In this document: positions 19,241-39,061 of the stretch, one piece after another
How the letters are laid out: every line of letters begins with the position of its first letter
Position numbering within the stretch: the first letter of the stretch is position 1
NCBI RefSeq assembly: GCF_028745735.1
Contig: NZ_JAQZSM010000022.1
Span: 1-64,000, forward strand
Length of the DNA stretch: 64,000 nucleotides
Reading direction: 5' to 3'
Source: Roseinatronobacter alkalisoli
Lineage (GTDB): Bacteria; Pseudomonadota; Alphaproteobacteria; Rhodobacterales; Rhodobacteraceae
Program-made: the position numbers and the translations under genes
Notes under the pieces: generated by a model
What the model was told of the DNA's origin: nothing
Database searches by the model: none
What the model saw: the letters and a program-made list of their open reading frames with translations, nothing else

Positions 19241-19254
19241 CCCTCCATAGCTGG

Positions 19255-23237: not shown

Positions 23238-23554
23238 ATAGATTTCTCTCCGGAAAACTGTGAATGTCTGTATTCTGGTTCCGGTTCTTTTTGCCGGTTT
23301 CTACACAAATATGTTACAAGGAAGCCTCGGTCTTTCGGCATTCAGGACCTGAAGCTGATCAGAAACCGAACATTGTTACATGTCGCCCGTGATTAGCGGC
23401 CCGGCAAATCCGTGCCCGACCTGCCGCTCGATACCGGGTGCAAATATTGCCAAACCACGCTTGCGCGATGGCCGTGCAACATAGCTCTTGTTGCTTCGTT
23501 AGTGGCAAAACCCTGAGATTGGCAGTTAGCGGCCGCCGACTTCGTCAGGCAGCT

Positions 23555-23827: not shown

Positions 23828-23890
23828 CACCGAACGCTATTCGGAGCATCCTGATGTCCATCGGTACGGATCATCCTTCACTTGTCGGAT

Positions 23891-24631: not shown

Positions 24632-24748
24632 CGACATCCTCCTCTTTCGGAGTGGGCAGGCCAGCGGACAAGTCGTCCTCGCCGTCTGGACGGCGGCGAG
24701 GCTGTATCAAGGCGCGTGACGGCCAATTCGATGCTGGCACGCGCTATG

Positions 24749-26194
24749 TTAGAACGGGTAATGCTGATCAGGATCTTCGATGGTGATCCAGCGTGTCAAG
24801 GTAAATGCGTCAAGTGCGGCCTTGCCCCCAAACCGACCATAACCCGAGTTCTTAACGCCGCCAAAGGGCATCTGGGCCTCGTCCGAAACGGTCGGACCGT
24901 TGATGTGGCAAATGCCGCTTTCGATCCGCTCTGCCACCGCCATGGCGCGGCGAATGTCGCGGCTGAAGACCGCGGCCGAAAGGCCATACTCGGTATCATT
25001 GGCGACACGCACCGCTTCATCGTCGTTGGCGACACGGATGATCGGCTTGACCGGACCGAAGCTTTCTTCCTGATAGATCGTCATATCGTCAGAGACGTTG
25101 TCGATCAGTGTGGCCGCAACGACCGATCCGTCACGCGCGCCACCCGCGACGACCTTGCCGCCCTTCGCTTTGGCGTCGCCGATGATCCGGTCCATCTTTT
25201 CGGCCGCCTCTGGCGTGATGAGTGCGCCGAGCACGACCTTCTCGCGCGGGTCGCCGTAGGGCAGCGCGCCTGCCTTGGCGGCAAGGGCGGCCACAAAGGC
25301 GTCGGCGATGCCTTCGTGAACGATGATCCGTTCGGTCGACATGCATATCTGGCCCTGGTTCATGAAAGCGCCAAACGCGGCTGCATTCACGGCACCTTCA
25401 AGATCAGCGTCGTCGAGGACAACGAGGGGCGCCTTGCCTCCCAGTTCCAGAAGCGCTGGCTTCAGATGCTCTGCTGCCTTCATTGCGATGATCCGGCCAA
25501 CCCGGGTCGAGCCGGTGAAGTTCACATGCTTGACTTCGGGGGCCGCGATCAGCGCCGCAACAATCTCGCCCGCATCTTCCGGCGCGTTGGTGATGACGTT
25601 GATCACGCCGTCAGGCAGCCCCGCCTCGGTCAGCGCGTCGCCAATGGCGCGGTGGATGAAGGGCGACAGCTCCGAGGCCTTGAACACCACCGTGTTGCCA
25701 CAGGCAATCGCCATGGCCACGGCCCGAACACCAAGGATGACAGGAGCATTCCAAGGCGCAATGCCAAGGCAGACGCCCAGCGGGCGGCGTATCGCCATGG
25801 ACAGGCAACCCGGTTTGTTCGATGGAATGACGTCGCCAGTGATCTGCGTGGTCATTGCGGCGACTTCGCGCAGGATGTCGCCTCCCAGCTTGCAATTAAA
25901 ACCAAGCCAAGGCCCGGTTGCTCCGGTTTCGGCGATCCCGCCCGCGATGATATCGGGGGTCATGGCGTCCAGCTTGTCGGCTGCCTTGTTCAGAATGGCC
26001 CGGCGCTGGCCCGGGGCTGTTGCCGCCCATGCCGGAAATGCCGCGTGGGCCGCAGCAACGGCACGAAGTGCATCGGCAACCGAGGCCGCCGGGGCCTGGG
26101 TCGCGATCTCGCCCGTCACCGGATCGTGGCGGTCGTAGGTCCGCCCGCCTTCGGCCTCGACGGCCTTGCCTCCGATCAACATCGAAATCTTCAT
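24749..26194 (-). CDS. Aromatic aldehyde dehydrogenase (vanillin/benzaldehyde dehydrogenase-like)
   Basis: 481 residues from the ATG at 26194, which has GAGGAGG upstream. All ALDH catalytic residues are visible: Asn149 in GIAPWNAPVILG, Lys172 in VVFKASELSP, Glu250 in LLELGGKAPLV and nucleophile Cys284 in NQGQICMSTE. The APWNAPVILGVRAVAMAIAC stretch is characteristic of the vanillin-dehydrogenase-like group, whose members oxidise benzaldehydes to benzoates with NAD(P). It starts 25 bp after the ThDP decarboxylase-like gene, so the two are co-transcribed; decarboxylase then aldehyde dehydrogenase is the same order of steps as mdlC and mdlD in the mandelate pathway. Confidence 0.9.
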   Translation of the reverse strand: MKISMLIGGKAVEAEGGRTYDRHDPVTGEIATQAPAASVADALRAVAAAHAAFPAWAATAPGQRRAILNKAADKLDAMTPDIIAGGIAETGATGPWLGFNCKLGGDILREVAAMTTQITGDVIPSNKPGCLSMAIRRPLGVCLGIAPWNAPVILGVRAVAMAIACGNTVVFKASELSPFIHRAIGDALTEAGLPDGVINVITNAPEDAGEIVAALIAAPEVKHVNFTGSTRVGRIIAMKAAEHLKPALLELGGKAPLVVLDDADLEGAVNAAAFGAFMNQGQICMSTERIIVHEGIADAFVAALAAKAGALPYGDPREKVVLGALITPEAAEKMDRIIGDAKAKGGKVVAGGARDGSVVAATLIDNVSDDMTIYQEESFGPVKPIIRVANDDEAVRVANDTEYGLSAAVFSRDIRRAMAVAERIESGICHINGPTVSDEAQMPFGGVKNSGYGRFGGKAALDAFTLTRWITIEDPDQHYPF

Positions 26195-26219
26195 GGTTTC
26201 TCCTCCTCGTTTTCGGTTT

Positions 26220-27941
26220 TCAGTTGTCCGGACGGATGGCAATGTTCAACAGCACCTGGCGTCGTTCGGTGGTCGCCACCCGGATCGCTTCGTTCAAGAC
26301 GGCGGGCAGGTCCTCTCCTTGGTCGACCGTCGCGGTCCAGGCCCGGCTGGCTTCGGCTGTCCGGGTGAAATCGGGGCTCGGTCGCAGGCTGGTCAGTGGC
26401 ACGGAATTGGCCTGTTTTGCCTCGCCCGTTGGATAGAGCCCCAGCACGGATTGCCGGACCGCGCCCCATTCGCCGTTGTTCAAAATCATGACGATCACCG
26501 GCAAAGCATGGGCTTCTGCAATCTGGTGGCAGGCCGTGGGGTTGGCGAACATGTAGCTGCCATCCCCCATCGTGGCAAAGACCAGCCGGTCAGGGTCGGC
26601 AAGTTGCCCGCCGAGTGCCGCGGGAAACCCCCAGCCCAATCCGCCCGAATGGGGTTCCTGAAAATAGCTCTTGTGATCTTCGACATCGAGATGGGCCAAC
26701 GGGCATCCCAGCTCGTGAAACACCGTGGACTTGCGCCCCTTGCCTGCCTGTTCTTTAATCGCTTGGCCCAAACAATGGGCGACCCATGCCTTGGTCATCG
26801 GCCCACCCTTGCCGCGTTCCGCCGTCGCAACAAGGGCCGCACGGGTTGCCGCCGATTCGGCGGCGATTGCCTTGCGCCGGACGTCTAGAGTCACCTCATC
26901 GCGCGGCAGGGCAGACATGGTGTCGATCAGGGCGAGCAGGCTGGGCCCGGTTTCCCCGACCAGCGTGACATGGGCCGGGAAATTGCGGATCGGTGTGCGG
27001 CTGAACAGCGGATCGGCGCCAAGCTGGATCACGGTCACATCGGGATGCAACTGCACCTGGTCCGGCCACCAGGGCGCCAGCGAGTCGATGACCAGAACCA
27101 CATCGGCCTCGGCCAGGGCGTCAGTGGGATCTTGGCCTATGTGCATCGGATGCGACAAAGCAAGGGTGGGCGTGTTGGCCCAGTATTGCGACACGGGCAG
27201 CGCCCAGCTATCGACAAAGGGTGCAAAGGCGGCAAAGGCCTCGGCACTTCCGGCCCCGCGTTGCGCAATGATCAGCGGAGATTTCGCGCCTGCCAGCAAG
27301 GCCGCTGCCCGTGCCAGTGATGACGCTTCGGGCGCAGCGATGGCGGGCGCCATGCGCGAGGGTTGGTCAAGACCATACTCGGCCGTCTGTTCGCACAGGA
27401 CCTCGCGTGGGAGGCTAAGATAGACCGGCCCCTTGGGCGTCGATTCCGAAATGGCCCAGGCGCGCTCGAACACTTCCGAGACCTGCTCGGGAAAGCGCAA
27501 CTCGTACTCCCACTTGGTGCATTCGCGCACGAGCGCTGCCTGATCGAACATCTCTTGCCCCCAGCCAATCGGCACGGTGCGCGCGCCAAAGCGGCGGCTT
27601 TCGGTCACCGGCGTGCGGCCTGACATCAGGATCATCGGAATTTGGTCGCACCAGGCGTTGATCGCCCCCATGGCCCCGTTCGCCAGACCGACATTGGTGT
27701 GCAGCATCACCGCTGCCTGCTTGCCGGAAATCTGATAGTAGCCATGCGCCATGCCAACCGCCACGCTTTCATGCGGGCAGATGATCGGCTCGGGCAAGTC
27801 AAGTGCCCGGCGACCAGCTTCGACCAGACCTTCCACAATCGGCGGGAAATCGGTGCCAGAGTTCACAAAGACATGTTCGACACCCAATGCCTTGAGCTTG
27901 CCGAAGATTGCCCCGCCTGCCGTGATCATTTCGTCGCTCAT
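26220..27941 (-). CDS. ThDP-dependent 2-oxoacid decarboxylase-like enzyme (benzoylformate decarboxylase/acetolactate synthase superfamily)
   Basis: 573 residues. The N-terminal domain carries the cofactor-activating Glu58 in PHESVAVGMAHGYY and a histidine, His81, in VMLHTNVGLANGAMG, matching in position the active-site His70 stretch of Pseudomonas benzoylformate decarboxylase. The C-terminal cofactor motif GDGSYMFANP ... ILNNGEWG lies at about residues 460-490. It is ~45 residues longer than classical benzoylformate decarboxylase, so substrate assignment is by context: between a mandelate-dehydrogenase-like enzyme and an aromatic aldehyde dehydrogenase it would decarboxylate an aryl 2-oxoacid to the aldehyde. 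A C-C ligase role is the alternative. Confidence 0.82.
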   Translation of the reverse strand: MSDEMITAGGAIFGKLKALGVEHVFVNSGTDFPPIVEGLVEAGRRALDLPEPIICPHESVAVGMAHGYYQISGKQAAVMLHTNVGLANGAMGAINAWCDQIPMILMSGRTPVTESRRFGARTVPIGWGQEMFDQAALVRECTKWEYELRFPEQVSEVFERAWAISESTPKGPVYLSLPREVLCEQTAEYGLDQPSRMAPAIAAPEASSLARAAALLAGAKSPLIIAQRGAGSAEAFAAFAPFVDSWALPVSQYWANTPTLALSHPMHIGQDPTDALAEADVVLVIDSLAPWWPDQVQLHPDVTVIQLGADPLFSRTPIRNFPAHVTLVGETGPSLLALIDTMSALPRDEVTLDVRRKAIAAESAATRAALVATAERGKGGPMTKAWVAHCLGQAIKEQAGKGRKSTVFHELGCPLAHLDVEDHKSYFQEPHSGGLGWGFPAALGGQLADPDRLVFATMGDGSYMFANPTACHQIAEAHALPVIVMILNNGEWGAVRQSVLGLYPTGEAKQANSVPLTSLRPSPDFTRTAEASRAWTATVDQGEDLPAVLNEAIRVATTERRQVLLNIAIRPDN

Positions 27942-28190
27942 GCTTGTCCTGCCTTCGTTTGGCTTCGATACTGCGAAGTCGGTTCACCCAGCCACACAAA
28001 GCCAGGAACGTCCGGCTCAACGGCAGGGGAAGGGAAACTACCTCTCCTCAACTGGCAATGGCACCGTCCAGTGCATCATTCCCGGCCCGTTCGGCTTTCC
28101 CCGCGCCGAACAAATTCCCCGTAGGGCCGATGTAAAGGATAGCGGCAAAGCGAAATATTGTCTAAATTATCATTGATATGGAGTTCATTG

Positions 28191-29105
28191 ATGAAATCAA
28201 TACGACTTGAGTCCTTCGACCTGAATCTGATGAAGCTCTTCGTCGCACTGGCCGAAACCGGATCGGTGACGCGTGCCGCAGCGCAGATCGGCCTGACCCA
28301 GCCGTCGGCAAGCAATGCGCTGCAACGGATGCGGCTTACGCTGGGTGATCCGCTTTTCGTTCGCAGCAAACGCGAGATGGTCCCGACGCGCTATGCCGCC
28401 CTGATCCTACCGACGGTTCGCGCGACACTCTCCGCGCTGTCCGAGGCGCTGAACCACGCGGCAGATTTCGAGCCACAGGAGAGCCGCAGGAGATTCAGAG
28501 TGTCGCTTTCGGGACTCGGAGAGGCGGTGTTCCTGCCGGTTCTGGCCACGATGGTCGGGAACGCGGCACCTTTTGTCGTGCTGGAGAACGATCCGGTTCC
28601 GTTGTCGAAGCTGGGAGAAAGCCTGCTGTCGGGACGCATTGACCTGGCGCTTGGGCTGGTTGCGGTTACGGCGCCCGGAATACGCAATCTGCCGCTGTAT
28701 CAGGAAAGCTATGTTGCTATCAGCGCACCGGACAGGGAACAGGTGCCGCAAACAATCTCTGATCTGCGCAACGAGCGGCTGGTTCTTGTGGCCCCTGCGG
28801 CAACCTTTGGCCGCGAGATTCAGACGATCCTGACGCGGTTAGGCCTTCAAGGCAACGTCGCGCTGATCGTGCAGGAATTCGCCGCCCTGCCCGAACTGCT
28901 GCAGGGCGGGCGCTACCTCGCGATCGTACCGGGCATCTATGGTGAAAAGCTGGCCCGCTCGGGTCGTGCCAAGGTATTGCCGGTGGCATTCGGTCATCCG
29001 GAAACGCCCGTCAACATGGTTTGGGCCAACCACGCCGAGTCAGATGCCGGTTTTCGCTGGTTTCGCGATCTGGTGGAACGGAGCCTTGTCGGGCAGACGC
29101 CTTGA
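28191..29105 (+). CDS. LysR-family transcriptional regulator
   Basis: 304 residues from the ATG at 28191, with TGGAG upstream; an earlier start would add eleven unsupported residues. The N-terminal winged helix is clear: NLMKLFVALAETGSVTRAAA and IGLTQPSASNALQRMR. Residues ~90-300 are the LysR inducer-binding domain. It is divergent from the ThDP/aldehyde dehydrogenase pair and convergent with the amidase/ABC/nitrile hydratase operon, the usual place for the activator of a catabolic cluster. The AT-rich stretch 28150-28185 upstream could carry its operator. Confidence 0.9.
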   Translation: MKSIRLESFDLNLMKLFVALAETGSVTRAAAQIGLTQPSASNALQRMRLTLGDPLFVRSKREMVPTRYAALILPTVRATLSALSEALNHAADFEPQESRRRFRVSLSGLGEAVFLPVLATMVGNAAPFVVLENDPVPLSKLGESLLSGRIDLALGLVAVTAPGIRNLPLYQESYVAISAPDREQVPQTISDLRNERLVLVAPAATFGREIQTILTRLGLQGNVALIVQEFAALPELLQGGRYLAIVPGIYGEKLARSGRAKVLPVAFGHPETPVNMVWANHAESDAGFRWFRDLVERSLVGQTP

Positions 29106-29156
29106 AGCACGGATGTTGATCTGAAGTCGTCTCACTAACCATGATGCGAATGCTGC

Positions 29157-30554
29157 TCAGGAGGAAGCCGCAGACATCACCCGTTCGAACGCCATTGCTG
29201 CGCCAAGCACCAGGGAATCGCATCCGGGCGGTGCGTCCAGTGCCAGACCCACCGGAAGCCCCCTGTCTGTCTTTCCGACAGGAACGGACACACCCGTGAA
29301 GGCGGCATTCGACAAGAGGTCGGCGTTGTGGATGATTGCGTCAAAAACCGAAAGGTCCTGATCGCCCAGACGCAGGGTGCCGGGCCCGTCCAAATCCGGC
29401 GCTTCGAACAGAGTGGTGGGACAAGCCAGTAAGTCGATCCTGTTGCGTGCGAACAGACCAGCCCCAGCAGCAATCAGGGCAGGACGATGGACGGTCGCCG
29501 CCACACGGTAGGCTTCTTCGGTGATGCGCGTCGTCGGATCTCGCTGGCTGTCGAAGATCACCCGAACGTCGGGGCTGGAAACCAGATCGCCGACCTTCGC
29601 ATAGTCGAGATCAAGCCCGTGCTTGGCCAGAAAGGCCTCCAGCTCGATCCGCCCTTCGTAGACTGGGACAATCATGGCGCTTTCGAGGTGCGGACGAACA
29701 AGGTCAAATGCGTCCACATTGACAAGTTCCGCCCCTTCCTCCTCGGCAAGGTGAAGGGCGGCCCGGCAAAGGGCGGCCACTTCGGGTGCAGCATTTTCCC
29801 AGAAGTAGCGTTCAGAAACGCCGATCCGCAATCCTTTGAGGGACCGGTGTCCGGTGGTTTGGCCCGTCACGCAACGGTCAATCAGCGCCAGGTCGCGGGC
29901 GGAACGGGCCAGCGGGCCCGGCGTGTCGCGGCTGGTCGAGATCGGGACAATGCCATCGGTCGGCCAGCGACCCAAAGTCGGGCGATACCCCCAGACACCG
30001 CAAAAGGCCGCCGGTACCCTAACCGAGCCACCAGTGTCGGTGCCGATCGAGACCGGCCCCAGACATGCAGCAACGGCTGTTCCGGAACCGCCGCTGGACC
30101 CGCCGGCAGTTTTGCTTCGGTCATGGGGGTTACGGGGGGTTCCAAAGGTCGGGTTCTGCGAGGTCGCACCATAGGCCAGTTCATGCATACCGACCTTGCC
30201 AAGCATGATGGCCCCTGATCGGCGAAGCTGTTCCACCACCGGTGCGTTGCAGTCGGGCCAGAAATTGCTCAGTGCCTTGGTGCCCGCCGTCGTGGGGTGA
30301 CCGAATACGTTGATGCTGTCCTTGAACGAGATCGGCACACCATGAAGCGGCCCCAGGGCCTGTCCGCTGGCCGACCTACAGTCCGCATCACGGGCGTCTT
30401 CCAGAACCCGCTCGGGGTCGATGCTGGTGAACGCATGCAGGTCCTGGTTCTTTGCGATTTGCTCCAGAACACTCTGTGCCAGTCCCTCGGCGCGTAGTCG
30501 GCCTGCGGAAATCGCTTCGGCGGCTTCCCAGGCAGTCAACTCTTCAACTAACAT
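29157..30554 (-). CDS. Amidase (amidase-signature family), mandelamide hydrolase-like role
   Basis: 465 residues. The Ser-cisSer-Lys triad can be placed: Lys78 in VPISFKDSINVFG, cis-Ser153 in AGGSSGGSGTAVA and nucleophile Ser177 in GTDTGGSVRVPAA; spacings of 75 and 24 match the family. It hydrolyses an amide to acid and ammonia. It is the last gene of the minus-strand operon and overlaps livM by 7 bp. In Pseudomonas putida the mandelate cluster also carries an amidase-signature mandelamide hydrolase (MdlY), and here a nitrile hydratase that makes amides lies in the same operon. The specific amide is inferred, not shown. Confidence 0.88.
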   Translation of the reverse strand: MLVEELTAWEAAEAISAGRLRAEGLAQSVLEQIAKNQDLHAFTSIDPERVLEDARDADCRSASGQALGPLHGVPISFKDSINVFGHPTTAGTKALSNFWPDCNAPVVEQLRRSGAIMLGKVGMHELAYGATSQNPTFGTPRNPHDRSKTAGGSSGGSGTAVAACLGPVSIGTDTGGSVRVPAAFCGVWGYRPTLGRWPTDGIVPISTSRDTPGPLARSARDLALIDRCVTGQTTGHRSLKGLRIGVSERYFWENAAPEVAALCRAALHLAEEEGAELVNVDAFDLVRPHLESAMIVPVYEGRIELEAFLAKHGLDLDYAKVGDLVSSPDVRVIFDSQRDPTTRITEEAYRVAATVHRPALIAAGAGLFARNRIDLLACPTTLFEAPDLDGPGTLRLGDQDLSVFDAIIHNADLLSNAAFTGVSVPVGKTDRGLPVGLALDAPPGCDSLVLGAAMAFERVMSAASS

Positions 30555-31534
30555 TTTCGGCCCCTAGATTCAGTCGGGTTGCGCTGAATGGGCAAGAGGT
30601 CCTGCCCGATCAGCTGCCGGATTCCACCCCAGGCGCCTTTGGGAAACAGGAGTGTTACAAGAATTGCCATCAGACCGAGGAGGATGAAGTAGACCGAGCC
30701 TAGATCGGACAGGGTTTCCCGTAGAAGAAAATACACCAAGACACCGACGATTGGACCTTCCAGCGTTCCGATTCCGCCCAGGATGACGACAAAGAGGGTG
30801 ATTGCCATCCAGTTCATCGAGAAGGCCGTTCCGGGTCCGATCTGCAATGCGAGCATGTAATATGCACCACCTCCGGCGCCCGCGACTGCCGCCGCGATCA
30901 TCATCACCAGCCCCTGAGTGCGGCGAAGGTCAATTCCCATGGCTTCGGCAGCTGTAGCATTGTCGCGGATTGCCCGCAGCGCCAAACCGACGCGGCTGCG
31001 CATCAAGAAGACGCAGACCACAAGCGCTACGATCAGGACCAGCGCAGCCGACCCGTAGGTTCCGTACATCCGAAGTTCGCGCGGGACGCTGCGCATGGCG
31101 GTCAGCGAGATTCCACCGCCGCCACCCAGAACCGAAGTTTGGAAGACGGAAAGCCGGACCACTTCGGAGATCACCCAGGAGGCAATGGCAAATTGTACGC
31201 CTTGAAGCCGGGACAGGATTGGCATGATGGCCAAAGCAATCAAGGCGCACAGCGCTGCCGAAAGCAGGATGAACGGGAAGGGCAAGACCTGAAATCCGTT
31301 AGCCGCCATGAAGACAGCATAGCCGCCGATCCCGACAAAGACCTGGAAGCCCATGAAGACCATGCCGCCAAAACCGGCCAGAAGGTTCCACATCAGTGCG
31401 ATGGCCAGAACGGCGGCCATTTCGGCCACGAGGTTAACCGTCTGACGCGAACCCAGGATTGGCACCAGGATCAGCAAAAGAACGATGATCGCCAGTACGA
31501 TGAAGGATCTGTTTATGGAGGGCAGGCGCATCAT
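30548..31534 (-). CDS. Branched-chain-type ABC transporter permease (LivM family)
   Basis: 328 residues, about eight to nine hydrophobic helices, with the LivM signature GLALRAIRDNATAAEAMGID and GGIGTLEGPIVG. It forms the inner-membrane channel with the LivH protein encoded immediately upstream (4-bp overlap). These transporters carry amino acids, amides, urea or aromatic acids; with nitrile hydratase and amidase in the same operon, an amide, nitrile or aryl acid is likely. Confidence 0.9.
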   Translation of the reverse strand: MMRLPSINRSFIVLAIIVLLLILVPILGSRQTVNLVAEMAAVLAIALMWNLLAGFGGMVFMGFQVFVGIGGYAVFMAANGFQVLPFPFILLSAALCALIALAIMPILSRLQGVQFAIASWVISEVVRLSVFQTSVLGGGGGISLTAMRSVPRELRMYGTYGSAALVLIVALVVCVFLMRSRVGLALRAIRDNATAAEAMGIDLRRTQGLVMMIAAAVAGAGGGAYYMLALQIGPGTAFSMNWMAITLFVVILGGIGTLEGPIVGVLVYFLLRETLSDLGSVYFILLGLMAILVTLLFPKGAWGGIRQLIGQDLLPIQRNPTESRGRKC

Positions 31535-32388
31535 TGTCTCCTGCGCAAGGACATCAGGCCACCTGGCAAGGCAAGCAGCACGACAAGAAAGACGAGGTGG
31601 CCGACAAGGGGACCGTAGCTAGGATTGATCAGGGACCCCGCAGCCTGCGAGAGACCCAGCAAAATACCCCCGGCCAGAGCCCCCCAGATCGAACCGACGC
31701 CGCCAAGGATCACTGCCTCGAAGGCAAAGAGCATCCGTTCGGGACCAGTCGAGGGGTCAAAGTTTCCGCGCATGCCGTAGAAACCGGCTGCGATTGCGGA
31801 AATGGCAAGAGTGAGGCCCATGGCCACAGCAAAGATGCGGCTTGTCTTAATCCCCATCAGTTGCGCCGTCTGATCGCTGTCCGACGTGGCGCGGATGGCA
31901 CGTCCGAACTTGGTCGAGCCGAAGACCGCGCTTGTCGCCCAGAAGATCGCGAACGCGACGACCAGCGTCAGCAGGGGTAGAACCCCAAGACTAAGGCCTG
32001 CGATCTCGATGGATGCCGCGCCCAATGGGCCGGGATTCAGGTTCCGCGTGTCGGCGCTGAACAGTTCCAGCATGACGTTCTGCAAAATGATCGACAGGCC
32101 AAAGGTCACCAGGATGGGCGGCATTTCACCACGGCCCAATGTGCGTTGGATCACCAGTCGCTGCAGGACGAACCCGACGACAAACATCACAACCGCAACC
32201 ACGGGCAAGACCATCAGCGGGTGGACTCCAAGGAGGAGTGAGCCCTGCAGGGTCAGATAGGCGGAGAAGACGATGAAATCGCCGTGGGCCAGATTGATCT
32301 GGCGCATAAGCCCCAAGGTCAGCGCCAACCCAAGACCGTAAAGCCCATAGAGAGCACCAATGAAGACCCCGTTGATCAGTACTTCCAT
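31531..32388 (-). CDS. Branched-chain-type ABC transporter permease (LivH family)
   Basis: 285 residues of hydrophobic helices with the LivH landmarks GLGLALTLGLMRQINLAHGD near the N-terminus and FGRAIRATSDSDQTAQLMGI in the cytoplasmic loop, then EAVILGGVGSIWGALAGGIL. It pairs with LivM. It starts 3 bp after livF. Confidence 0.92.
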   Translation of the reverse strand: MEVLINGVFIGALYGLYGLGLALTLGLMRQINLAHGDFIVFSAYLTLQGSLLLGVHPLMVLPVVAVVMFVVGFVLQRLVIQRTLGRGEMPPILVTFGLSIILQNVMLELFSADTRNLNPGPLGAASIEIAGLSLGVLPLLTLVVAFAIFWATSAVFGSTKFGRAIRATSDSDQTAQLMGIKTSRIFAVAMGLTLAISAIAAGFYGMRGNFDPSTGPERMLFAFEAVILGGVGSIWGALAGGILLGLSQAAGSLINPSYGPLVGHLVFLVVLLALPGGLMSLRRRQ

Positions 32389-32391
32389 GAT

Positions 32392-33087
32392 TCAATCCAT
32401 CCCGAAATAGGCGCTTGAAATTTGCGCGCGGTCTGCCCCGGCCGAGGGACCGCTGAGGGGTATGCCGCCATGCCGCATACAGGCATAAATGTCCGACGAA
32501 GCCAGCGCCCGGCTGATGTCCTGTTCGACGATGATCAGTGTCATGCCCTCTGCGCGCAAACGCGAGATGGCGGTATAGACAACGTCGACAGCAGCCGGCG
32601 ACAAGCCCAGCGAGAGTTCGTCGCACAGCAAGACAATCGGATTGGACATCAGCGCACGCCCAATGGCCACCAGTTGTTGCTGGCCACCCGACAGCGAAGA
32701 AGAGGGCCGCTTGCGCAGCGGTTCAAGGGTGGGAAAGACCGAATAGACCCTTTGCAGGTCCCAAGTCCCCTTGCGATCGCAATGCGCCCCGATCATCAGG
32801 TTTTCTTCCACCGTCAACGACGGGAAAAGTCGGCGCCCCTCGGGAACCATGGCGAGGCCCATGGAAACGATATCGGTGGGTGTCAAACCCGAAATGACCG
32901 AGCCGTTCAACGTCACCTTGCCGGATCGCGGCTTAACGAATCCGGTCAGGACCGAGAACGTCGTGGTCTTGCCAGCACCATTTGACCCGATCAGCGCCAG
33001 TGTCTGGCCCTCGGCGACGTGAAGCGACACGCCAAACAGAACCGACAATGCGCCGTAACCGGCATGAAGATCATTAATCGAGATCAT
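32392..33087 (-). CDS. Branched-chain-type ABC transporter ATPase (LivF family)
   Basis: 231 residues from the ATG at 33085-33087 (MISINDLHAGYGALSV). Walker A ALIGSNGAGKTTTFSVLTG, signature SSSLSGGQQQLVAIGRALM, Walker B IVLLCDELSLGLSP with the usual EDL/EPS position occupied by CDELS, and a switch histidine replaced by IIVEQD (LivF-type Gln). The start overlaps the livG stop by 14 bp. It energises the importer together with LivG. Confidence 0.92.
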   Translation of the reverse strand: MISINDLHAGYGALSVLFGVSLHVAEGQTLALIGSNGAGKTTTFSVLTGFVKPRSGKVTLNGSVISGLTPTDIVSMGLAMVPEGRRLFPSLTVEENLMIGAHCDRKGTWDLQRVYSVFPTLEPLRKRPSSSLSGGQQQLVAIGRALMSNPIVLLCDELSLGLSPAAVDVVYTAISRLRAEGMTLIIVEQDISRALASSDIYACMRHGGIPLSGPSAGADRAQISSAYFGMD

Positions 33088-33826
33088 GCTGTTCGGGCTC
33101 CATCCCAAAGTAGATTTGCCGGACCTTGGGCAGTTGCATTGTTTCATGAGGCTGGCCCGCGGCGATGATGCGGCCCTCGCCCAGCACCGCGAGTCGGTGC
33201 GCTGCGTGCGCGAGAACGTGCACAAGGTGTTCGATCCAGATCACCGCGATGCCCCGAGCTGCCAGTGCCGTGATGGTTTCGACCAACCCTTCCGCCTCTT
33301 TGTCGGTCAGGCCGCCTGCGATCTCATCCAGCAATAGCACCGCGGGCTTGGTTGCCAGCGCCCTTGCCAATTCCAGCCGCTTGCGATCAAGAAGAGACAG
33401 TTCGCCAGCCTGAGCATCGGTACGGTGCGTAAAGTCACAGAGATCGAGTGTTTCCCGGATCAGTACCTCAGCCGCATGATCGGGAAGTCCGGCGCCAAAC
33501 TTCGCCGCGACCAACAGGTTTTCGTAGACCGACATCTGGGAGAATGTCTGTGGCACCTGAAACGTGCGTCCGATTCCGTTCTTCGCCCGTTCCGCGGCAC
33601 TAAGATCGGTGATGTCACGTCCCTGCAGCACGATCCGGCCGGCCGAGGGTGCGTGCGCCCCGGAGATCACACCGAATAGCGTGGTCTTTCCCGATCCGTT
33701 CGGGCCGATGATCCCCAGTATTTCGCCTGCAACGGCCTCAAGGCTGACATCCTCGAGCACGTTGGGACCGCCATATGATTTGGCAATTCCTTCGACAGCA
33801 ATCGCTGATATGGCGGCCCCGGTCAT
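33074..33826 (-). CDS. Branched-chain-type ABC transporter ATPase (LivG family)
   Basis: 250 residues. Walker A GIIGPNGSGKTTLFGVISG, signature AGELSLLDRKRLELARALA, Walker B VLLLDEIAGGLTDKEAE and switch IEHLVHVL. The LivG-type C-terminal extension ends in LPKVRQIYFGMEPE. Signature LLDRK in place of the standard GGQ is common in this subfamily. It follows the binding-protein gene by 3 bp. Confidence 0.92.
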   Translation of the reverse strand: MTGAAISAIAVEGIAKSYGGPNVLEDVSLEAVAGEILGIIGPNGSGKTTLFGVISGAHAPSAGRIVLQGRDITDLSAAERAKNGIGRTFQVPQTFSQMSVYENLLVAAKFGAGLPDHAAEVLIRETLDLCDFTHRTDAQAGELSLLDRKRLELARALATKPAVLLLDEIAGGLTDKEAEGLVETITALAARGIAVIWIEHLVHVLAHAAHRLAVLGEGRIIAAGQPHETMQLPKVRQIYFGMEPEQHDLD

Positions 33827-33829
33827 GGC

Positions 33830-35128
33830 TCAGATACCCACGCCCAGCTTGAACGTGTCCTCGATCGGCACTTCAGGCGCGGCGGCGTTGTAGGTCACTT
33901 TCAGTGCATAGCTTCCATCGGGCTGCAGCCGCCACTGGCCGCCTGCAATCTTCAGCTTTGCGACGTTCTTGACCGGGCTGCCAGCGAAGTCGATGTCGCC
34001 GATGATCGTGGTCATGTTGGTGTTCCTGATCACGTCCTGCACCGAATCCGGATCCATCGGGTCGGCGGCATTTTTCAGTGCGTTGATCCCAAGTTCCCAC
34101 AGCGCATGGACAACGCCGATCGGCTGCGTCCAGGGTCTGCCGCTGGTGGCGGTGTAGTCGCCGGCCAACTCTTGCGAGCTTTGCCCGGTGAGGGTCGACT
34201 TGTAGGGATAGGCCGGCGTCCACCAGATCTCGGTAGACATGCCGTCGCCGCCGTTGCCCAGGGCCGCAATGCCTGCCGGAAACAGCAGCGCTTTGGCCGG
34301 GGTCGCTATCTTGGGCTTGAAGCCCAATTGCTGTGCCTGCCGCCAGAAGATCGCCCATTCCGATGGGCTGAATAGACCGGTGACAATATCACAGCCCGCG
34401 TTGCGAAATGCAGTGATCTGGGCCGAGAAGTCATCGGCACCAACCTGGAACTCGCCCACATCGGTGATCTCGTAACCGCCCGCCCCCAACGAAGCCGGGA
34501 AGCCGATGTCTTTGCTGCCGAAGACCTTGCCGGGAGGGTCGTTCGACCAGACAGTCGCGACTTTCTTGTTGGTGTCCTGGCCATCCCACATGCCGATGAA
34601 GGTCGAGATGATATCCTCGATCCCCCAGAAGAAATGGTTGACGTATTCGAACCCGACGGCGGGGTCGCCACCCTGCGGAAACATCCAGCCCTGCCAGGGG
34701 TCCATCGTGGTGATGCACGGAACCCCGGCCACCTCGCATTGCGCCGAGACCGGAACAGCTGTGCTGGCACCCTGCGCGAGCATCAGATTGACCTCTTCGC
34801 CGTTGATCAGGCGGTTGGCGGAGGTCGCGGCCCGGTCCGAGTTCGACTGGTCGTCGACTTCGGAGATCTCTACTTCATAGGTCTTGCCGTTGACTGTCAG
34901 GCCGCTTGCCAAGGCGGCGCGGACCTTCTGCAACATAAACGGATCAGATTCGGCAAAAGGTGCCAGCGAGCCAGTCTGTGGGCTGACGTAGCCGATACGC
35001 AGAACGTCTGAACCGGCCAGTGCTGGTGCAGCAAGTCCGGAACTCAGCCCCAAAGTGGCAGCAGCACCACCCAACCCTTGTAACGCTTCCCGCCGGGTCA
35101 TGCCGGCGACACGAGAACGCCTTGTCAT
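33830..35128 (-). CDS. ABC transporter substrate-binding protein (Peripla_BP_6/LivK-like)
   Basis: 432 residues. An N-terminal twin-arginine-like signal (TRREALQGLG, then a hydrophobic stretch ending in APALAGSD) precedes a periplasmic type I binding fold (VLRIGYVSPQTGSLAPFAES, NRLINGEEVNLMLAQG, VATVWSNDPPGKVFG). GGGGAGA-type RBS sits upstream of the ATG. It is the receptor for the LivFGHM proteins encoded downstream. The family binds branched-chain amino acids, amides, urea or aromatic acids; this one's ligand is unknown but it lies between nitrile hydratase and amidase. Confidence 0.9.
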   Translation of the reverse strand: MTRRSRVAGMTRREALQGLGGAAATLGLSSGLAAPALAGSDVLRIGYVSPQTGSLAPFAESDPFMLQKVRAALASGLTVNGKTYEVEISEVDDQSNSDRAATSANRLINGEEVNLMLAQGASTAVPVSAQCEVAGVPCITTMDPWQGWMFPQGGDPAVGFEYVNHFFWGIEDIISTFIGMWDGQDTNKKVATVWSNDPPGKVFGSKDIGFPASLGAGGYEITDVGEFQVGADDFSAQITAFRNAGCDIVTGLFSPSEWAIFWRQAQQLGFKPKIATPAKALLFPAGIAALGNGGDGMSTEIWWTPAYPYKSTLTGQSSQELAGDYTATSGRPWTQPIGVVHALWELGINALKNAADPMDPDSVQDVIRNTNMTTIIGDIDFAGSPVKNVAKLKIAGGQWRLQPDGSYALKVTYNAAAPEVPIEDTFKLGVGI

Positions 35129-35298
35129 ATTGTTTTTCTCCCCTGTTGTATCGCCGCACCCATTCCGGATGTCTGATCGATAACATTGTTGTCTTTGAAG
35201 TTTACAAGGGCTTCGGGCGGACCGGTATCAGCAGAATTGTTGAGAGAATTCGGCGTCATTGAACAGGTACGGCTGCGCGAGGCCTAACGCCTACTGGC

Positions 35299-35320
35299 CT
35301 GCACCTGCATGCAGGTGCAG
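35299..35320. promoter_or_regulatory. 22-bp perfect palindrome inside the operon gap
   Basis: CTGCACCTGCA followed directly by its reverse complement. It sits in the 345-bp gap between the nitrile hydratase accessory gene and the ABC binding-protein gene. It may be an operator for an internal promoter, or it may form a cruciform or hairpin in the mRNA. Confidence 0.5.
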
Positions 35321-35440
35321 ATGGTCTGCCTATGTCCTGGGCTTTGAAGGCCAAGCCTACTTCAGCCAAACTTTCCGACGTCGCCCAAGACTCTCGCCAA
35401 GCCAGTACTACAAGAAAATGGGATGCACCCAAATTGGCAG
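35321..35440 (+). pseudogene. AraC-family regulator C-terminal remnant
   Basis: The plus strand reads YVLGFEGQAYFSQTFRRRPR then LSPSQYYKKMG, closely resembling the second helix-turn-helix of AraC/XylS regulators (GF-x-SQSYF-FRR-G-SPSQYR). No N-terminal domain or start is present. It is a stub lying antisense within the catabolic operon. The rest of the 35129-35473 gap holds the palindrome and no other gene. Confidence 0.5.
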
Positions 35441-35473
35441 ATCAGACTTCAGCAACCGCCGACATTTTGACCT

Positions 35474-35941
35474 TCACTGCCCGACACGGCGCGCAGGGCT
35501 GATCGCCACCGGACCATGGTGATGGTCGTGATCGTGGTTATGGCTGTGGTCGTGATCCAGTTCCTCAAGCGCGCCTGACGGGATCGGCTCAAGTCCCTTG
35601 CGGAATTCGATTGCCTTGCCGTGTTCGGTATAAAAGTAAGACCGGCGCCAATGCTCCTCGTAGTCCGTCACTTCGGTCGTAGAGATCAAGCCACGCGCGG
35701 CGATAATCTTTTCCAGCGCCTGCATCCACTGACGATAGTAGGAGGTGTTGATATCCTCATCTGCCGTCTGCGGCGATGCGGCGATTTCTGCCGAAAACGT
35801 ACCGACCCAGTCGTTCCAGGTAAAATGGCCCGCCCGCGACAGCTGCATGGTCAGGGCAAAGGCTTCTGCCTGCCAAGGCTCGGAAAAGGCAGGCCCATCT
35901 TCCAGCCATTTCGGATCAACTGTCGGCCCCGCAGTGGTCAC
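35474..35941 (-). CDS. Nitrile hydratase accessory/activator protein with His-rich tail
   Basis: 155 residues. Residues ~15-110 resemble the N-terminal domain of nitrile hydratase beta (EPWQAEAFALTMQL, HFTWNDWVGTFSAEI, YYRQWMQALEKIIAARGLIS), as in the small cobalt-type activators (P14K/NhlE-like) that load metal into the alpha subunit. The C-terminus has about ten histidines alternating with aspartates (LDHDHSHNHDHD and onwards), which looks like a metal-binding or delivery tail. Start overlaps the beta C-domain gene stop by 4 bp. Role in cobalt insertion is inferred from family and context. Confidence 0.82.
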   Translation of the reverse strand: MTTAGPTVDPKWLEDGPAFSEPWQAEAFALTMQLSRAGHFTWNDWVGTFSAEIAASPQTADEDINTSYYRQWMQALEKIIAARGLISTTEVTDYEEHWRRSYFYTEHGKAIEFRKGLEPIPSGALEELDHDHSHNHDHDHHHGPVAISPARRVGQ

Positions 35942-36291
35942 TGGTCATCTCCGGCAAGAAGGTAGCTCTCCCAGAGACTGAGGTATACCGCACCCGGCCC
36001 ATCGCTGCCCTTGCCCCACAGATTTTTGCTGTCAAAGCGCACGCAATAGAGATGTTCTGGACATTCACCCCGCCCCATCGAATGCGCGTCGGGAAAAACA
36101 TGCGCACCTTCATACCCGACAATTGTGCCAGGCTTGTCACGCGCATAGCCCGGCAGGCGGGTGTGCGTAGAGACCGTGTCGTTGATCGTCCTGACCGTTT
36201 CACCGACTTGGAATACGGGCGATGTCTCGACAGGGCGGAGGGTGGGCGCACCGGTGGCCACTGCCACCGCAACCATTTCCTTAGGCAGCAT
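35938..36291 (-). CDS. Nitrile hydratase beta subunit, C-terminal domain as a separate protein
   Basis: About 117 residues if it starts at the ATG at 36289-36291 (MLPKEMVAVAVATGAP); a start at 36312 is possible. It is the SH3-like C-terminal half of nitrile hydratase beta: FQVGETVRTIND, PGYARDKPGTIVGYEGAHVF, and the highly conserved GRGECPEHLYCVRF and AVYLSLWESYL. It overlaps the gene for the N-terminal half by 11 bp, in a different frame. In most bacteria the two halves are one ~220-residue chain; separate chains are known for thiocyanate hydrolase and toyocamycin nitrile hydratase. Confidence 0.88.
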   Translation of the reverse strand: MLPKEMVAVAVATGAPTLRPVETSPVFQVGETVRTINDTVSTHTRLPGYARDKPGTIVGYEGAHVFPDAHSMGRGECPEHLYCVRFDSKNLWGKGSDGPGAVYLSLWESYLLAGDDQ

Positions 36292-36604
36292 CTCCAGCCC
36301 CCTTTGCCGCAAGTTCTGCGATCCGCGTCTGATACTCTTCCTGCGAGAAGACTCCCTTGGAAATCAGCAGATCTTCAAGCGAATGCAGCCAATGTTCGAA
36401 ATAAGTTGTGGTCAGATATTCGACGGCCGGAATTTTCTCCATCGAATGCCGGCTTTCGTCGATGTTGAAACAGCCGGCCGCCAGCGAAAGAATATTCACG
36501 GCAAAGGTATCGGCTTCCCACTCTGCCTTGAACCGGGTGTCGTCATCCGCCAGGTCAACTGGTCCAAAACCCTGAATTCCGCCCAGATCGGCGATTGATC
36601 GCAT
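36281..36604 (-). CDS. Nitrile hydratase beta subunit, N-terminal domain as a separate protein
   Basis: 107 residues. It matches the helical N-terminal half of nitrile hydratase beta: DLGGIQGFGPVD, FKAEWEADTFAVNI, and NIDESRHSMEKIPAVEYLTT, where the Arg after DES is the position of the beta arginine that hydrogen-bonds the modified active-site cysteines. It ends AAKGAGDAA with a genuine stop, and the C-terminal half starts in another frame within its last codons. It follows the alpha gene by 11 bp. Confidence 0.9.
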   Translation of the reverse strand: MRSIADLGGIQGFGPVDLADDDTRFKAEWEADTFAVNILSLAAGCFNIDESRHSMEKIPAVEYLTTTYFEHWLHSLEDLLISKGVFSQEEYQTRIAELAAKGAGDAA

Positions 36605-36615
36605 GATCTTACCCC

Positions 36616-37233
36616 CTAGCCTACCACAACGTCCGTCAAAACGCTGACCCCGATCATAGAGTCACGCGTCACGAGCGCCTCCAATTGTTCCTCGGTCCAG
36701 CCATCCGTGCCGGTCGGGCGCTCGGGCAGAACCATATAGCGGATCTCGGCGTTGCTGTCGTAGACCCGCACTTCGCAGTCCTCGCTGATTTGCAGGCCAA
36801 ATTCGGCAAGTACGGCGCGCGGCTCAATGACAATACGACTGCGATAGGCCGCAGACTTGTACCAGGACGGTGGCAGTCCAAGGACGGTCCAAGGATAGCA
36901 CGAACACAAGGTGCAGACGATCACGTTATGCACCGCCGAAGTGTTTTCAAGAATGTGCATCGCCTCGCCCTGCAAGCCACCGATCCCCATTTCCTTCAGG
37001 GCCCCAGTGCCATCCGCCAGAAGGCGCTTCTTGAAAGCGGAATCGGACCAGGCGCGCGCGACAACCCGGGCACCGATGCGTGGACCAAGCTTGTTTTGAA
37101 AGATGTCGACGATTTCCGTCACAGCTCCGGGATCAATCTTGCCCTTCTCCACCATCAGCGTCTCGATCGCCTTTATGCGCAGCGCAAGCGAGGATGGCGG
37201 CAGTGTATGGTCGTCGTGGCCCATGGCAGTCAT
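36616..37233 (-). CDS. Nitrile hydratase alpha subunit, cobalt type
   Basis: 205 residues, normal length for the family. It carries the metal-binding claw at Cys107-Thr-Leu-Cys110-Ser-Cys112 (VCTLCSC); Thr in the second position is the hallmark of the cobalt class, Ser of the iron class. The claw is followed by [20 protein letters not shown], typical of nitrile hydratases. The N-terminal part ([19 protein letters not shown]) is the helical arm that wraps the beta subunit. It hydrates nitriles to amides in the cytoplasm; cysteine oxidation is expected after translation. It lies between a mandelate-dehydrogenase-like gene and the split beta genes. Confidence 0.93.
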
Positions 37234-37291
37234 GCTTCTCTGTCTTTGGCGTTTTGTTCAGTCTATCCGCAGCCAAGCGCACAATGCATCC

Positions 37292-38440
37292 TCATTTTTG
37301 TGGATGTGCTGCCCGCGCTTCGGTTGCCAGGTGACGGGGCGAAAGCAAGTCGGCGCGCGGGCATCCAACCAGCGCAAGAGTGGTATCGAGTTCCGCTTTC
37401 ATCAGGTCCAGGACCTCGCAGACACCGGCCTCGCCGGCCGCGGCCAAACCGTACAGCAGCGCCCTGCCGGACATCGTTATGACCGCGCCCGAAGCGACGG
37501 CCTTGGCAATGTCAGCCCCAGAACGGATGCCGCTGTCCATCAGGATCGGAATTTGCAGGGCCGCCAACGCGTCCTGCAACAGGCTGATCGGGGCCGGGAC
37601 GTCCTCAAGCTGTCGACCGCCATGGTTCGAAAAGACGACGGCGTCCGCGCCCGCCTTCTCCAACCGCAGAGCATCTTCGACGCAGAGGACACCCTTGACG
37701 ATCAGCTTGTGCGGCCAAAGATCACGCAGTGCTGCAAAGGCCTCCCAGTCAAAGCCTGCGTCCATCCGGCGCGCCATGAGCGCCGATTGGGATGCGACAT
37801 CGGTCGCGTCCGCCGAGGCGAAATTGGCAAGCTGCGGCAGGCCATGCCTGACCTGCGCCAAGCTCCAGAGCGGGTGGGTTGCCGTATCGAAGAGGATCTT
37901 GGGAGACAGCTTGAAGGGTACCTTGAAACCCGAACGCAAATCGCGTTCCCGCTTGCCGTTGACCGCAACATCCGTGGTCAGGATCAGGGTCGAATAGCCA
38001 GCCTTCAGCGCGCGTTGGACAAAGTCGCGTGCCTGGTCACGGTTCATGACGTAAAGCTGGAACCATTTTTCGGCATCGGTCGCACGTGCCACGTCTTCGA
38101 TTGTAGACGTCGAAGCCGTCGACAGACAGAACGGTATGTCATACTTGGCAGCTGCCCGCGCCAGCGCGCGATCGCCATCGGGCCACAAGACTCCGTTCAG
38201 GCCGGTCGGCGCGATTGCCAAGGGCATGGCATAGGTCTTGCCGAACAATTGTGCAGACTGATCGCGATGATCCACCGCGACAAGCCGGTGCGGATCGAAC
38301 AGGATGTCATCCAATGCGTCGCGATTGCGGCGCAAGCCGCGTTCGCTGCCTGCGCCACCCTCAAGGTAATCAAAGACCATCCGCGGCAGGCGGCGACGCG
38401 CACGCCTGCGCATGTCCTCGATGTTGACAAGATCGACCAT
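37292..38440 (-). CDS. mdlB: FMN-dependent (S)-mandelate/2-hydroxyacid dehydrogenase
   Basis: 382 residues from the ATG at 38438-38440, preceded by GGAGGAAGC. It closely follows Pseudomonas putida (S)-mandelate dehydrogenase in blocks such as RLPRMVFDYLEGGAG, IAPTGLNGVLWPDGDRALAR, LTTDVAVNGKRERDL, PLWSLAQVRHGLPQLANF and FDWEAFAALRDLWPHKLIVK. Catalytic residues align with a one-residue offset: Tyr130, Arg164, His273 and Arg276 (SNHGGRQ). It oxidises an aryl 2-hydroxyacid to the 2-oxoacid at the membrane, feeding quinone. It is the promoter-proximal gene of the nitrile hydratase operon. The symbol is by similarity recalled from memory; L-lactate is the alternative substrate. Confidence 0.85.
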   Translation of the reverse strand: MVDLVNIEDMRRRARRRLPRMVFDYLEGGAGSERGLRRNRDALDDILFDPHRLVAVDHRDQSAQLFGKTYAMPLAIAPTGLNGVLWPDGDRALARAAAKYDIPFCLSTASTSTIEDVARATDAEKWFQLYVMNRDQARDFVQRALKAGYSTLILTTDVAVNGKRERDLRSGFKVPFKLSPKILFDTATHPLWSLAQVRHGLPQLANFASADATDVASQSALMARRMDAGFDWEAFAALRDLWPHKLIVKGVLCVEDALRLEKAGADAVVFSNHGGRQLEDVPAPISLLQDALAALQIPILMDSGIRSGADIAKAVASGAVITMSGRALLYGLAAAGEAGVCEVLDLMKAELDTTLALVGCPRADLLSPRHLATEARAAHPQK

Positions 38441-38614
38441 TGCTTCCTCCGCAAAATCTCGCGCCGCGCGTTCCGCCGTGGCATATCGGCGCCCGGCGCC
38501 ATAAAGACGTTGCATGGTGCCGAAACAGGACCTGAATCTCCGAAAACTACCCTCCCGCAGACAGACGCACCATCCACAGTTCTGCTACCATTGGTGACGC
38601 AAGCACTTGTTGTG

Positions 38615-39061
38615 GCATTGCCAAGTTATTGCTGGTTGGTTGTAGTCGTGGCGGTTCTCGTCATTTATGCCGTCATTTCGTGGGCATAGTCGTTCCATAG
38701 CCGGAAGGCATCTGCCCGAGCGTGTCGATTGTACTTTGCGATGAGACGGTAGCGGCGGGGTTTGAAGATCGTATTGATTTGGTCATGTGCGGCAAGGAAA
38801 CGCTGCGCTTGTCCGGATGATTCGAACCGTCCCATTATTTTCTCCCGTCTTCGGGTCTGCCTGTGGCTGCCCTCGATCCGGTTGTTGAGATCCTTGCGGG
38901 CGCGATGGTCAGCATTGGATGCCCGCTGTGCGATCGGCTTTGCATAGCTACGCAGCTTGTCGGTGACGACCACTCTCGGCTGGCCAAATTGAGTGATCAA
39001 CCGTGTCAGGAAGCGCTTTGCAGCCTTGGCATTGCGGCGCGTCTGGACGAGAATGTCGAGC
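38615..39061 (-). pseudogene. IS6-family (type B) element, truncated
   Basis: The minus strand encodes the C-terminal ~130 residues of a type B IS6 transposase (LDILVQTRRNAKAAKRF, VVVTDKLRSYAKP, NNRIEGSHRQTRR, FNDYAHEMTA-like end). Its outer end GGCATTGCCAAGTT is at 38615. The N-terminal ~100 residues are missing because the intact type B copy abuts at 39062. The 38441-38614 stretch is the upstream region of the mdlB-like operon. Confidence 0.8.

Follow-up and report, generated by a model that had tools for sequence, protein, structure and literature searches.

Can a bacterium carry, as one unit, the whole route from an aryl hydroxynitrile to an aromatic acid, and can that route begin with a nitrile hydratase (NHase)? 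The question is raised by a locus in Roseinatronobacter alkalisoli (genome 4.8 Mb), in a stretch of 64,000 nucleotides (NZ_JAQZSM010000022.1, positions 1 to 64,000; hereafter the window) that makes up nearly the whole of a 64.5-kb contig. An initial annotation had placed at 24749-38440 a cobalt NHase, an amidase, a dehydrogenase like the (S)-mandelate dehydrogenase MdlB, a thiamine diphosphate (ThDP) enzyme, an aldehyde dehydrogenase (ALDH), an ATP-binding cassette (ABC) importer and LysR and LuxR regulators, and profile and Protein Data Bank (PDB) matches find all of them there. The interval was nevertheless drawn too short: on the left, conservation continues as far as 18259, across genes for a family 3 glycoside hydrolase (GH3), a major facilitator superfamily (MFS) transporter and an AraC-family regulator. 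From the gene content, we would give a probability of roughly 65% to the reading that this block spread by horizontal transfer and serves the catabolism of an aryl cyanohydrin, perhaps met as its beta-glucoside.

Results

The block recurs in another genus

The shared block occupies window positions 18259-38594 (~20.3 kb, 18 genes), and the genome search for co-occurring genes that the initial annotation had proposed returns the same block in Sulfitobacter sp. DFL-14 (NZ_QBFD01000017.1). By blastn against that contig, window positions 18259-23456 are 89.6% and 23816-38594 are 91.9% identical at the DNA level; the two sequences diverge past both block ends, where the DFL-14 contig continues for 268 bases on the left and ~16 kb on the right, and the single match outside the block is 109 bases long (window 52502-52610). 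Because the block is 90-92% identical whereas a 4.7-kb stretch of rpoB is 79.2% identical between the two genomes, the block has probably been transferred horizontally. Transposase-like sequence lies near both module ends, as IS6 on the window's right and otherwise as judged by eye:

38665-39072, minus strand: part copy of an IS6-family transposase, read from the sequence, outside the module's right end
39109-39819, plus strand: IS6-family transposase gene (NF033587, 211 bits, cut-off 125), just beyond the right end

Gene order is the same in both copies, all 18 reading frames are open in each, and the ratio of nonsynonymous to synonymous changes per site (dN/dS) between them is 0.064-0.325, with dS of 0.15-0.34. 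The recurrence of 18 open genes in the same order in another genus, at dN/dS of 0.06-0.33, argues that their grouping is more than chance. The MdlB gene itself is rare: at E<=1e-100 one of the window's kind is found in 1 of 292 genomes of the order (its own) and, at E<=1e-90, in 4 of 260 of the class (its own and three at 42-43%), while DFL-14's genus has it in 2 of 62 genomes (DFL-14 and one at 51%). A scan of genome contigs with the MdlB protein gave 18 loci, with DFL-14 at 93%, Zhengella mangrovi at 63% and the others at 54% or less.

Enzymes of the predicted core route

The genes that would take a cyanohydrin to an acid are:

37292-38440, minus strand: MdlB-like FMN (S)-2-hydroxyacid dehydrogenase, membrane segment kept (PDB match to MdlB)
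36616-37233, minus strand: cobalt-type NHase alpha subunit (TIGR01323, 295.5 bits, cut-off 249.85; motif VCTLCSC; top PDB matches cobalt-type NHases)
36281-36604, minus strand: N-terminal half of NHase beta (beta-N, 107 aa; aligns with residues 1-94 of the cobalt-type beta 3qxe_B, E 3e-20)
35938-36291, minus strand: C-terminal half of NHase beta (beta-C, 117 aa; NHase_beta_C 7.4e-30; own ATG; 11-nt overlap with beta-N)
35474-35941, minus strand: NHase accessory (activator) protein with His-rich tail (TIGR03889, 88.4 bits, cut-off 46)
29157-30554, minus strand: amidase, proposed hydroxyamide (mandelamide-type) hydrolase (NF005688 indoleacetamide hydrolase, 493.8 bits)
26220-27941, minus strand: ThDP enzyme of the PRK08327 family, proposed (4-hydroxy)benzoylformate decarboxylase (NF006203, 634.5 bits, cut-off 456)
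24749-26194, minus strand: aromatic ALDH of the salicylaldehyde/vanillin dehydrogenase group (PDB 6qhn, salicylaldehyde dehydrogenase, 571.6 bits; 9ihb, vanillin dehydrogenase, 569.7 bits)

The likeness of the dehydrogenase to MdlB had been called the strongest link, and it holds: the top PDB match is the Pseudomonas putida (S)-mandelate dehydrogenase 6bfg (E 1.1e-133, 373 residues without a gap). Positions 26, 81, 131, 165, 274 and 277 of 6bfg, which we take to be catalytic, are Y, G, Y, R, H and R in the window protein, in agreement with the claim of identical catalytic residues. Top match and retained active site together place the protein among the MdlB-type (S)-mandelate dehydrogenases. 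The amidase belongs to the same superfamily as the mandelamide hydrolase MdlY, in a comparison made at superfamily level, and its relatives occur in mandelate clusters; it matches 21 plasmid records, two of which were examined, and most others among the 15 listed are named indoleacetamide hydrolase.

The ThDP enzyme had been described as of the benzoylformate decarboxylase (BFD, MdlC) type, and here the assignment has to change, as the protein passes the curated cut-off for PRK08327 and is ~26-28% identical to BFDs of true mandelate clusters. In an alignment with these, the window's enzyme retains the HE-motif Glu and the LH-motif His, with Thr-Asp in place of Ser-Asn. The family is matched at E<=1e-60 in 32 of 292 genomes of the order. 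Of 20 ThDP regions from these genomes, 19 were left after exclusion of the own paralogue L049, and the neighbours include an ALDH of the window's group (>=55%) in nine of these and a TRAP transporter DctM gene (>=60% to the Chelatococcus type) in ten. On plasmids, PRK08327 genes stand beside pcaQCHG..B-ALDH-TRAP in Chelatococcus and beside TRAP-pobA-pcaGHC in Roseivivax; in Neorhizobium petrolearium the ThDP gene overlaps an MdlB gene, and in a distant case (L050) a ThDP gene (46%) adjoins an MdlB-like gene (40%). Because of these neighbours of the family (ALDH, TRAP, pca/pobA, MdlB), a role as aryl-glyoxylate decarboxylase would fit the window's enzyme. The paralogue L049 (G000:C24:20451-22136), a second gene of this family in the window's genome, is 51-52% identical and lies near Liv-type/TRAP-like genes.

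A nitrile hydratase with its beta subunit split into two genes

That the cluster contains a cobalt-type NHase stands, as alpha carries the CTLCSC motif of that type and an activator protein is encoded, but beta is not intact as one gene: its N and C domains are both present, in two overlapping reading frames. A purine-rich AAGGGGG precedes the ATG of beta-C. An assembly error as the source of the frame change is rejected because DFL-14 carries the identical junction. Both halves are under purifying selection, with dN/dS between window and DFL-14 of 0.08 for beta-N and 0.20 for beta-C (3/243 vs 11/78 and 15/262 vs 22/89 changes per site; Fisher p 2e-5 and 3e-6). The beta residues Arg52 and Arg157 touch the oxidised cysteines, according to the available text of one source (PMC7193024); the equivalent of Arg52 is kept in beta-N, and that of Arg157 is residue 45 of beta-C, by the offset from an alignment to fused cobalt-type beta.

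The arrangement is found elsewhere. Among 63 NHase loci 14 were scored as split, or 12 of 61, window and DFL-14 included, once two with doubtful labels (L125 and L129) were left out of the count on the tree; on the alpha tree these imply at least six changes, three of them forced by well-supported branches. In ten further loci the two beta genes overlap or adjoin as translationally coupled genes do (L077, L116, L118, L120, L124, L126, L130, L132, L135 and L143). Annotation may have overlooked such genes or called them pseudogenes; PLSDB lists no beta gene for L143. From the identical junction, the selection on both halves and the same overlapping split in the ten other loci, sequence comparison indicates that the split beta is a natural, recurrent form, like the cut in thiocyanate hydrolase. 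The alpha and beta chains of that enzyme are weak matches of beta-C (E 0.0034) and beta-N (E 0.047), respectively, and an identification of the window enzyme as thiocyanate hydrolase is rejected, the gamma-subunit model TIGR03887 giving 196.6 bits, under its cut-off of 291.45. The accessible text of PMC7193024 and PMC3323583 describes NHases as alpha plus beta, or fused, and does not mention a split beta; in the openly licensed literature, with subscription papers outside its scope, we found no survey of split-beta NHases.

Importer, regulators and layout of the block

The remaining genes of the right-hand part are:

33830-35128, minus strand: periplasmic substrate-binding protein of the Liv-type importer (Peripla_BP_6)
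33074-33826, minus strand: LivG ATPase of the ABC importer (Pfam)
32392-33087, minus strand: LivF ATPase of the ABC importer (Pfam)
31531-32388, minus strand: LivH permease of the ABC importer (Pfam)
30548-31534, minus strand: LivM permease of the ABC importer (Pfam)
28191-29105, plus strand: LysR regulator, divergent from the ThDP gene with 249 nt between (Pfam)
23891-24637, minus strand: LuxR-type regulator (Pfam GerE)

The PDB relatives of the binding protein match too weakly for a ligand to be read from them. From 38440 downwards the minus strand carries MdlB, NHase alpha, beta-N, beta-C, accessory protein, binding protein, LivG, LivF, LivH, LivM and amidase; LysR then lies tail to tail with the amidase and divergent from ThDP-ALDH, followed by LuxR and by MFS-GH3-AraC. 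The intergenic gaps are 58 nt between MdlB and NHase alpha, 345 between accessory and binding protein, and 25 between ALDH and ThDP; in the left part they are 111 (LuxR-ALDH), 653 (MFS-LuxR), 4 (GH3-MFS) and 63 (AraC-GH3). Strands and gap lengths thus give at least three same-strand runs plus LysR, and the idea of a single operon has to be given up. Promoter and terminator scans found no more sites than shuffles (5 vs 5.6; 15 vs 17.1).

The glycosidase and its neighbours

The left part of the block contains:

22029-23237, minus strand: MFS transporter, weakly like the GPH glycoside symporters (Pfam/NCBIfam profile scores)
19304-22024, minus strand: GH3 glycosidase, beta-glucosidase-like, with a PA14 insert (Pfam GH3 N/C)
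18287-19240, minus strand: AraC-family regulator (Pfam HTH_18, 1.9e-19; 91.5% to DFL-14, dN/dS 0.17)

The best NCBIfam beta-glucosidase model gives the GH3 protein 455 bits (cut-off 1300), and no curated GH3 model reaches its cut-off; an SDY motif, presumably with the nucleophile, is present. Since no signal peptide is visible by eye, the enzyme is probably cytoplasmic. The MFS protein is 18 residues shorter than that of DFL-14 through an in-frame loss inside a hydrophobic, probably transmembrane stretch, and may be damaged in the window's genome.

Related clusters

We compared 19 distinct loci with an MdlB relative at about 50% identity or more (L082, L083, L086, L088-L095, L171, L172/L173, L178-L183), with flanks of 0.3-15 kb, short at some loci; L096-L105, ten of the 18 loci of the contig scan with MdlB at 45% or less, stand outside this count, and among 659 plasmid records with an MdlB-type match gene surroundings were examined in ten. 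An NHase lies near MdlB at one locus (DFL-14, the same module) and a nitrilase-type gene at five (L083, L089, L090, L172 and L183, that of L183 at 35% and 10 kb away). Five loci (L083, L086, L089, L178, L180) pair a BFD like that of Rhizobium rhizogenes K84 (>=58%) with a K84-like benzaldehyde dehydrogenase, four of them having a mandelate racemase and one (L180) a pobA-like gene. In five more (L173, L179, L181, L182, L183) the BFD is 44-45% identical to that of K84 and the ALDH, at 63-64% to the Chelatococcus one, is of the window's group; no racemase appears in any of them, and pobA is present in two (L173, L182). The window resembles the latter set, as it lacks a racemase and has an ALDH of that group.

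Two plasmids bear on the unity of the module. In Rhizobium sp. RCAM05350 (L171) the order is amidase, Liv importer, BFD, MdlB (54%) and mandelate racemase, with a LysR gene also present; its amidase, split into two frames in the record, is the best-scoring plasmid relative of the window's (45%), and its BFD is 89% identical to that of K84. The conjugative plasmid NZ_CP126319.1 of the sorghum-rhizosphere isolate Burkholderia anthina SO82 contains, within 140000-176532, a cluster (L172/L173) of mdlC, ALDH (59% to the window's), MFS, pobA, MdlB (54%) and AraC genes, then nitrilase, MFS, amidase (37%), binding protein, Liv and LuxR genes, this LuxR matching the window's at 42% over 227 aa. Because amidase, Liv importer and MdlB are joined in both clusters, with LuxR added in SO82, they appear to belong together. 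The SO82 cluster is in its own right a candidate nitrilase-type cluster for 4-hydroxymandelonitrile on a conjugative plasmid; sorghum makes dhurrin, the glucoside of that nitrile. A plasmid search with the whole cluster at near-DNA level matched ALDH pieces only.

Other genes of the window

No mandelate racemase (MdlA) gene was found within the module. An enolase-superfamily (MR/MLE) gene at 16137-17309 was rejected as one, being outside the block and galactonate-dehydratase-like (308.3, cut-off 311); with TRAP importer genes it makes up 13140-17309, immediately left of the module. On the right lie an Imm11-domain protein (40067-40741, Pfam 2.2e-6), a 330-aa protein without a Pfam match (41137-42129), three large surface-type proteins in a row (43702-52453; 369, 1681 and 864 aa) with DUF11, PKD and Gly-rich domains, and aminotransferase, APH-fold kinase, PALP enzyme and ornithine-cyclodeaminase-like genes (56334-61947), possibly a catabolic set for an amino-acid derivative. 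Scans of the window for tRNA genes and Rfam families found nothing.

Discussion

The comparison shows which genes are present and to what families they belong, that they are conserved together and under selection, that the block has spread horizontally and that parallel clusters exist; every substrate and the order of the reactions are inferred from this. In the route that we propose, a glycoside would be taken up by the MFS transporter and cut by the GH3 enzyme in the cytoplasm, and/or a nitrile, amide or acid would enter through the Liv importer. The cyanohydrin would be hydrated by the three-polypeptide cobalt NHase (alpha, beta-N and beta-C, with the activator) before it decays to hydrogen cyanide (HCN), and the amidase would hydrolyse the 2-hydroxyamide, yielding ammonia. 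The (S)-2-hydroxyacid would be oxidised by the MdlB-like enzyme, the resulting aryl-glyoxylate decarboxylated by the PRK08327 ThDP enzyme and the aldehyde oxidised by the ALDH to an acid, which would pass to chromosomal funnels, in the window's genome most likely as 4-hydroxybenzoate via PobA. This succession from hydroxynitrile through hydroxyamide, hydroxyacid, oxoacid and aldehyde to acid, first put forward in the initial annotation, is partly supported, by the two parallel clusters, the ThDP-MdlB adjacency in Neorhizobium and the conservation in DFL-14, and the core from cyanohydrin to acid seems the most probable part of the proposal. Entry as a glucoside, for which the chances appear slightly below even, is its boldest and least certain part, and possible damage to the MFS gene in the window adds to the doubt.

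As to the substrate, an aryl cyanohydrin is retained, but the genes found elsewhere in the genome speak for a 4-hydroxyaryl compound more than for mandelonitrile itself. A pobA gene is present in the window's genome (648 bits, cut-off 539), where benA stays below its cut-off (best 81, cut-off 781) and boxB has no match; DFL-14 has pobA (632 bits) as well as boxB (902, cut-off 499), and benA is absent there too (best 194). Possession of pobA without benA or boxB favours a 4-hydroxyaryl substrate in the window's host; for DFL-14 the case is less clear. Since pobA is common in such bacteria, its presence says little about substrate, and we lean only slightly towards a 4-hydroxyaryl over an unsubstituted compound. 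With 4-hydroxybenzoate as the probable product, 4-hydroxymandelonitrile (dhurrin, taxiphyllin) would be the most likely substrate. It is tempting to go further and propose a self-contained mobile module that would let its host live on an aromatic cyanogenic glucoside taken up intact (such as dhurrin or taxiphyllin), drawing carbon and nitrogen from it with no cyanide release, through import, intracellular deglucosylation, trapping by the split-beta NHase and formation of 4-hydroxybenzoate via a new kind of benzoylformate decarboxylase; taken as a whole, this is a speculation that we hold tentatively, with more doubt than belief.

Several observations weigh against our reading. With two module copies found, the association of the genes depends on a single transferred block, and near the second-nearest MdlB, that of Zhengella mangrovi (63-65%), the other module enzymes were not found within 10 kb with the queries used. 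NHases of the window's kind are widespread in the order (213 of 390 genomes), where they serve other purposes, the amidase falls under the cut-off of 532 of its nearest NCBIfam model, NF005688, and the ThDP enzyme is without the MdlC-type HQY loop and far from true BFDs. The Liv genes of the parallel clusters are merely 27-35% identical to the window's, boxB in DFL-14 leaves benzoate possible, and the loss of 18 residues in a probable membrane helix of the MFS protein speaks against working glycoside uptake in the window's host.

The block might be no more than independent pieces travelling together, a general nitrile/amide nitrogen set, a mandelate/aryl-glyoxylate set and a glucosidase set, and its separate same-strand runs and regulators (AraC; LuxR/LysR), with gaps of 653, 249 and 345 nt, would suit such a history, as would NHase, amidase and importer genes without mandelate genes (e.g. 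Thioclava and aldoxime-dehydratase clusters) and an ALDH-ThDP-LysR set by itself at a contig end in another genome (G220). We consider this unlikely: MdlB and NHase share a strand with 58 nt between them, amidase, Liv importer and MdlB stay together on two unrelated plasmids that lack NHase, one of them with LuxR as well, and all genes have remained open and under selection since the two copies split.

A different objection accepts the pieces as a unit and changes the substrate, to another aryl 2-hydroxy compound such as a lignin-derived aryl C2 acid or amide, with the NHase serving a side nitrile, for example indole-3-acetonitrile, together with the IaaH-like amidase. The amidase does score highest as indoleacetamide hydrolase, and benzoylformate clusters without MdlB, described in the part of PMC7760541 available, serve lignin fragments. 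MdlB adjoins the NHase, however, amidases named IaaH sit within mandelate clusters, and the accessible text of PMC8955678 places an indoleacetamide-hydrolase-like gene by the nitrilase and mandelate genes of Pseudomonas fluorescens EBC191, so that this alternative strikes us as quite improbable. Last, a dead NHase in a decaying block, through a plain frameshift or sequencing error, would account for the single frame change in beta and the shortened MFS gene; the shared junction, the purifying selection on both halves, the separate ATG, the ten other split loci and the retained arginines make it very improbable indeed. A module for an aryl cyanohydrin thus remains the reading that we prefer.

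If it is correct, hydration of a cyanohydrin inside the cell would at once detoxify it and feed the host, with the carbon and nitrogen of the nitrile retained, all from one mobile unit; a function would be assigned to the PRK08327 ThDP family, and a natural split-beta NHase would be on offer for biocatalysis. Cyanogenic glucosides are a widespread plant defence whose usual bacterial fate, in the available text of PMC11311503, is beta-glucosidase cleavage followed by HCN release.

Comparison with known systems

The P. putida mdlABCD/mdlY pathway shares with the module an MdlB-type dehydrogenase followed by oxoacid decarboxylation and aldehyde oxidation, with an amidase feeding in from the amide; the module differs in having no racemase, a PRK08327 ThDP enzyme, an ALDH of the salicylaldehyde/vanillin group, an NHase upstream, and added Liv, GH3 and MFS genes. 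That an NHase start is new was claimed at the outset, and we found no NHase-entry mandelate cluster described in the openly licensed literature, most subscription journals lying outside that scope. A nitrilase-entry cluster is nonetheless already known from P. fluorescens EBC191, in which, in the available text, mandelate-pathway genes lie near an arylacetonitrilase and the pair is proposed to allow use of plant-released mandelonitrile through the mandelate pathway (PMC8955678). The kind of system is therefore known and the NHase entry is the variation: EBC191 has a nitrilase in place of the module's NHase and amidase, and the accessible text does not mention a glucosidase.

The SO82 cluster has homologues of the ALDH, MdlB, amidase, Liv importer and LuxR, plus pobA, but uses nitrilase and mdlC instead of NHase and PRK08327, and no GH3 gene is listed within its interval. 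The pAtK84c cluster of R. rhizogenes K84 likewise combines MdlB (55%) with nitrilases, BFD and ALDH, whereas its mandelate racemase and benzoate dioxygenase mark a benzoate-type branch. In the N. petrolearium plasmid cluster the PRK08327 gene overlapping MdlB is accompanied by an ALDH of the same group, with a TRAP importer and no NHase. Thiocyanate hydrolase and toyocamycin NHase each have three subunits. With cobalt-type NHases and thiocyanate hydrolase the window enzyme shares the cobalt motif and activator, and with the latter a beta in two chains, although it scores as an NHase. Set beside these systems, the module looks, from its genes, like a new NHase-entry form of the nitrile-to-mandelate pathway, mobile, with a split NHase and a different decarboxylase.

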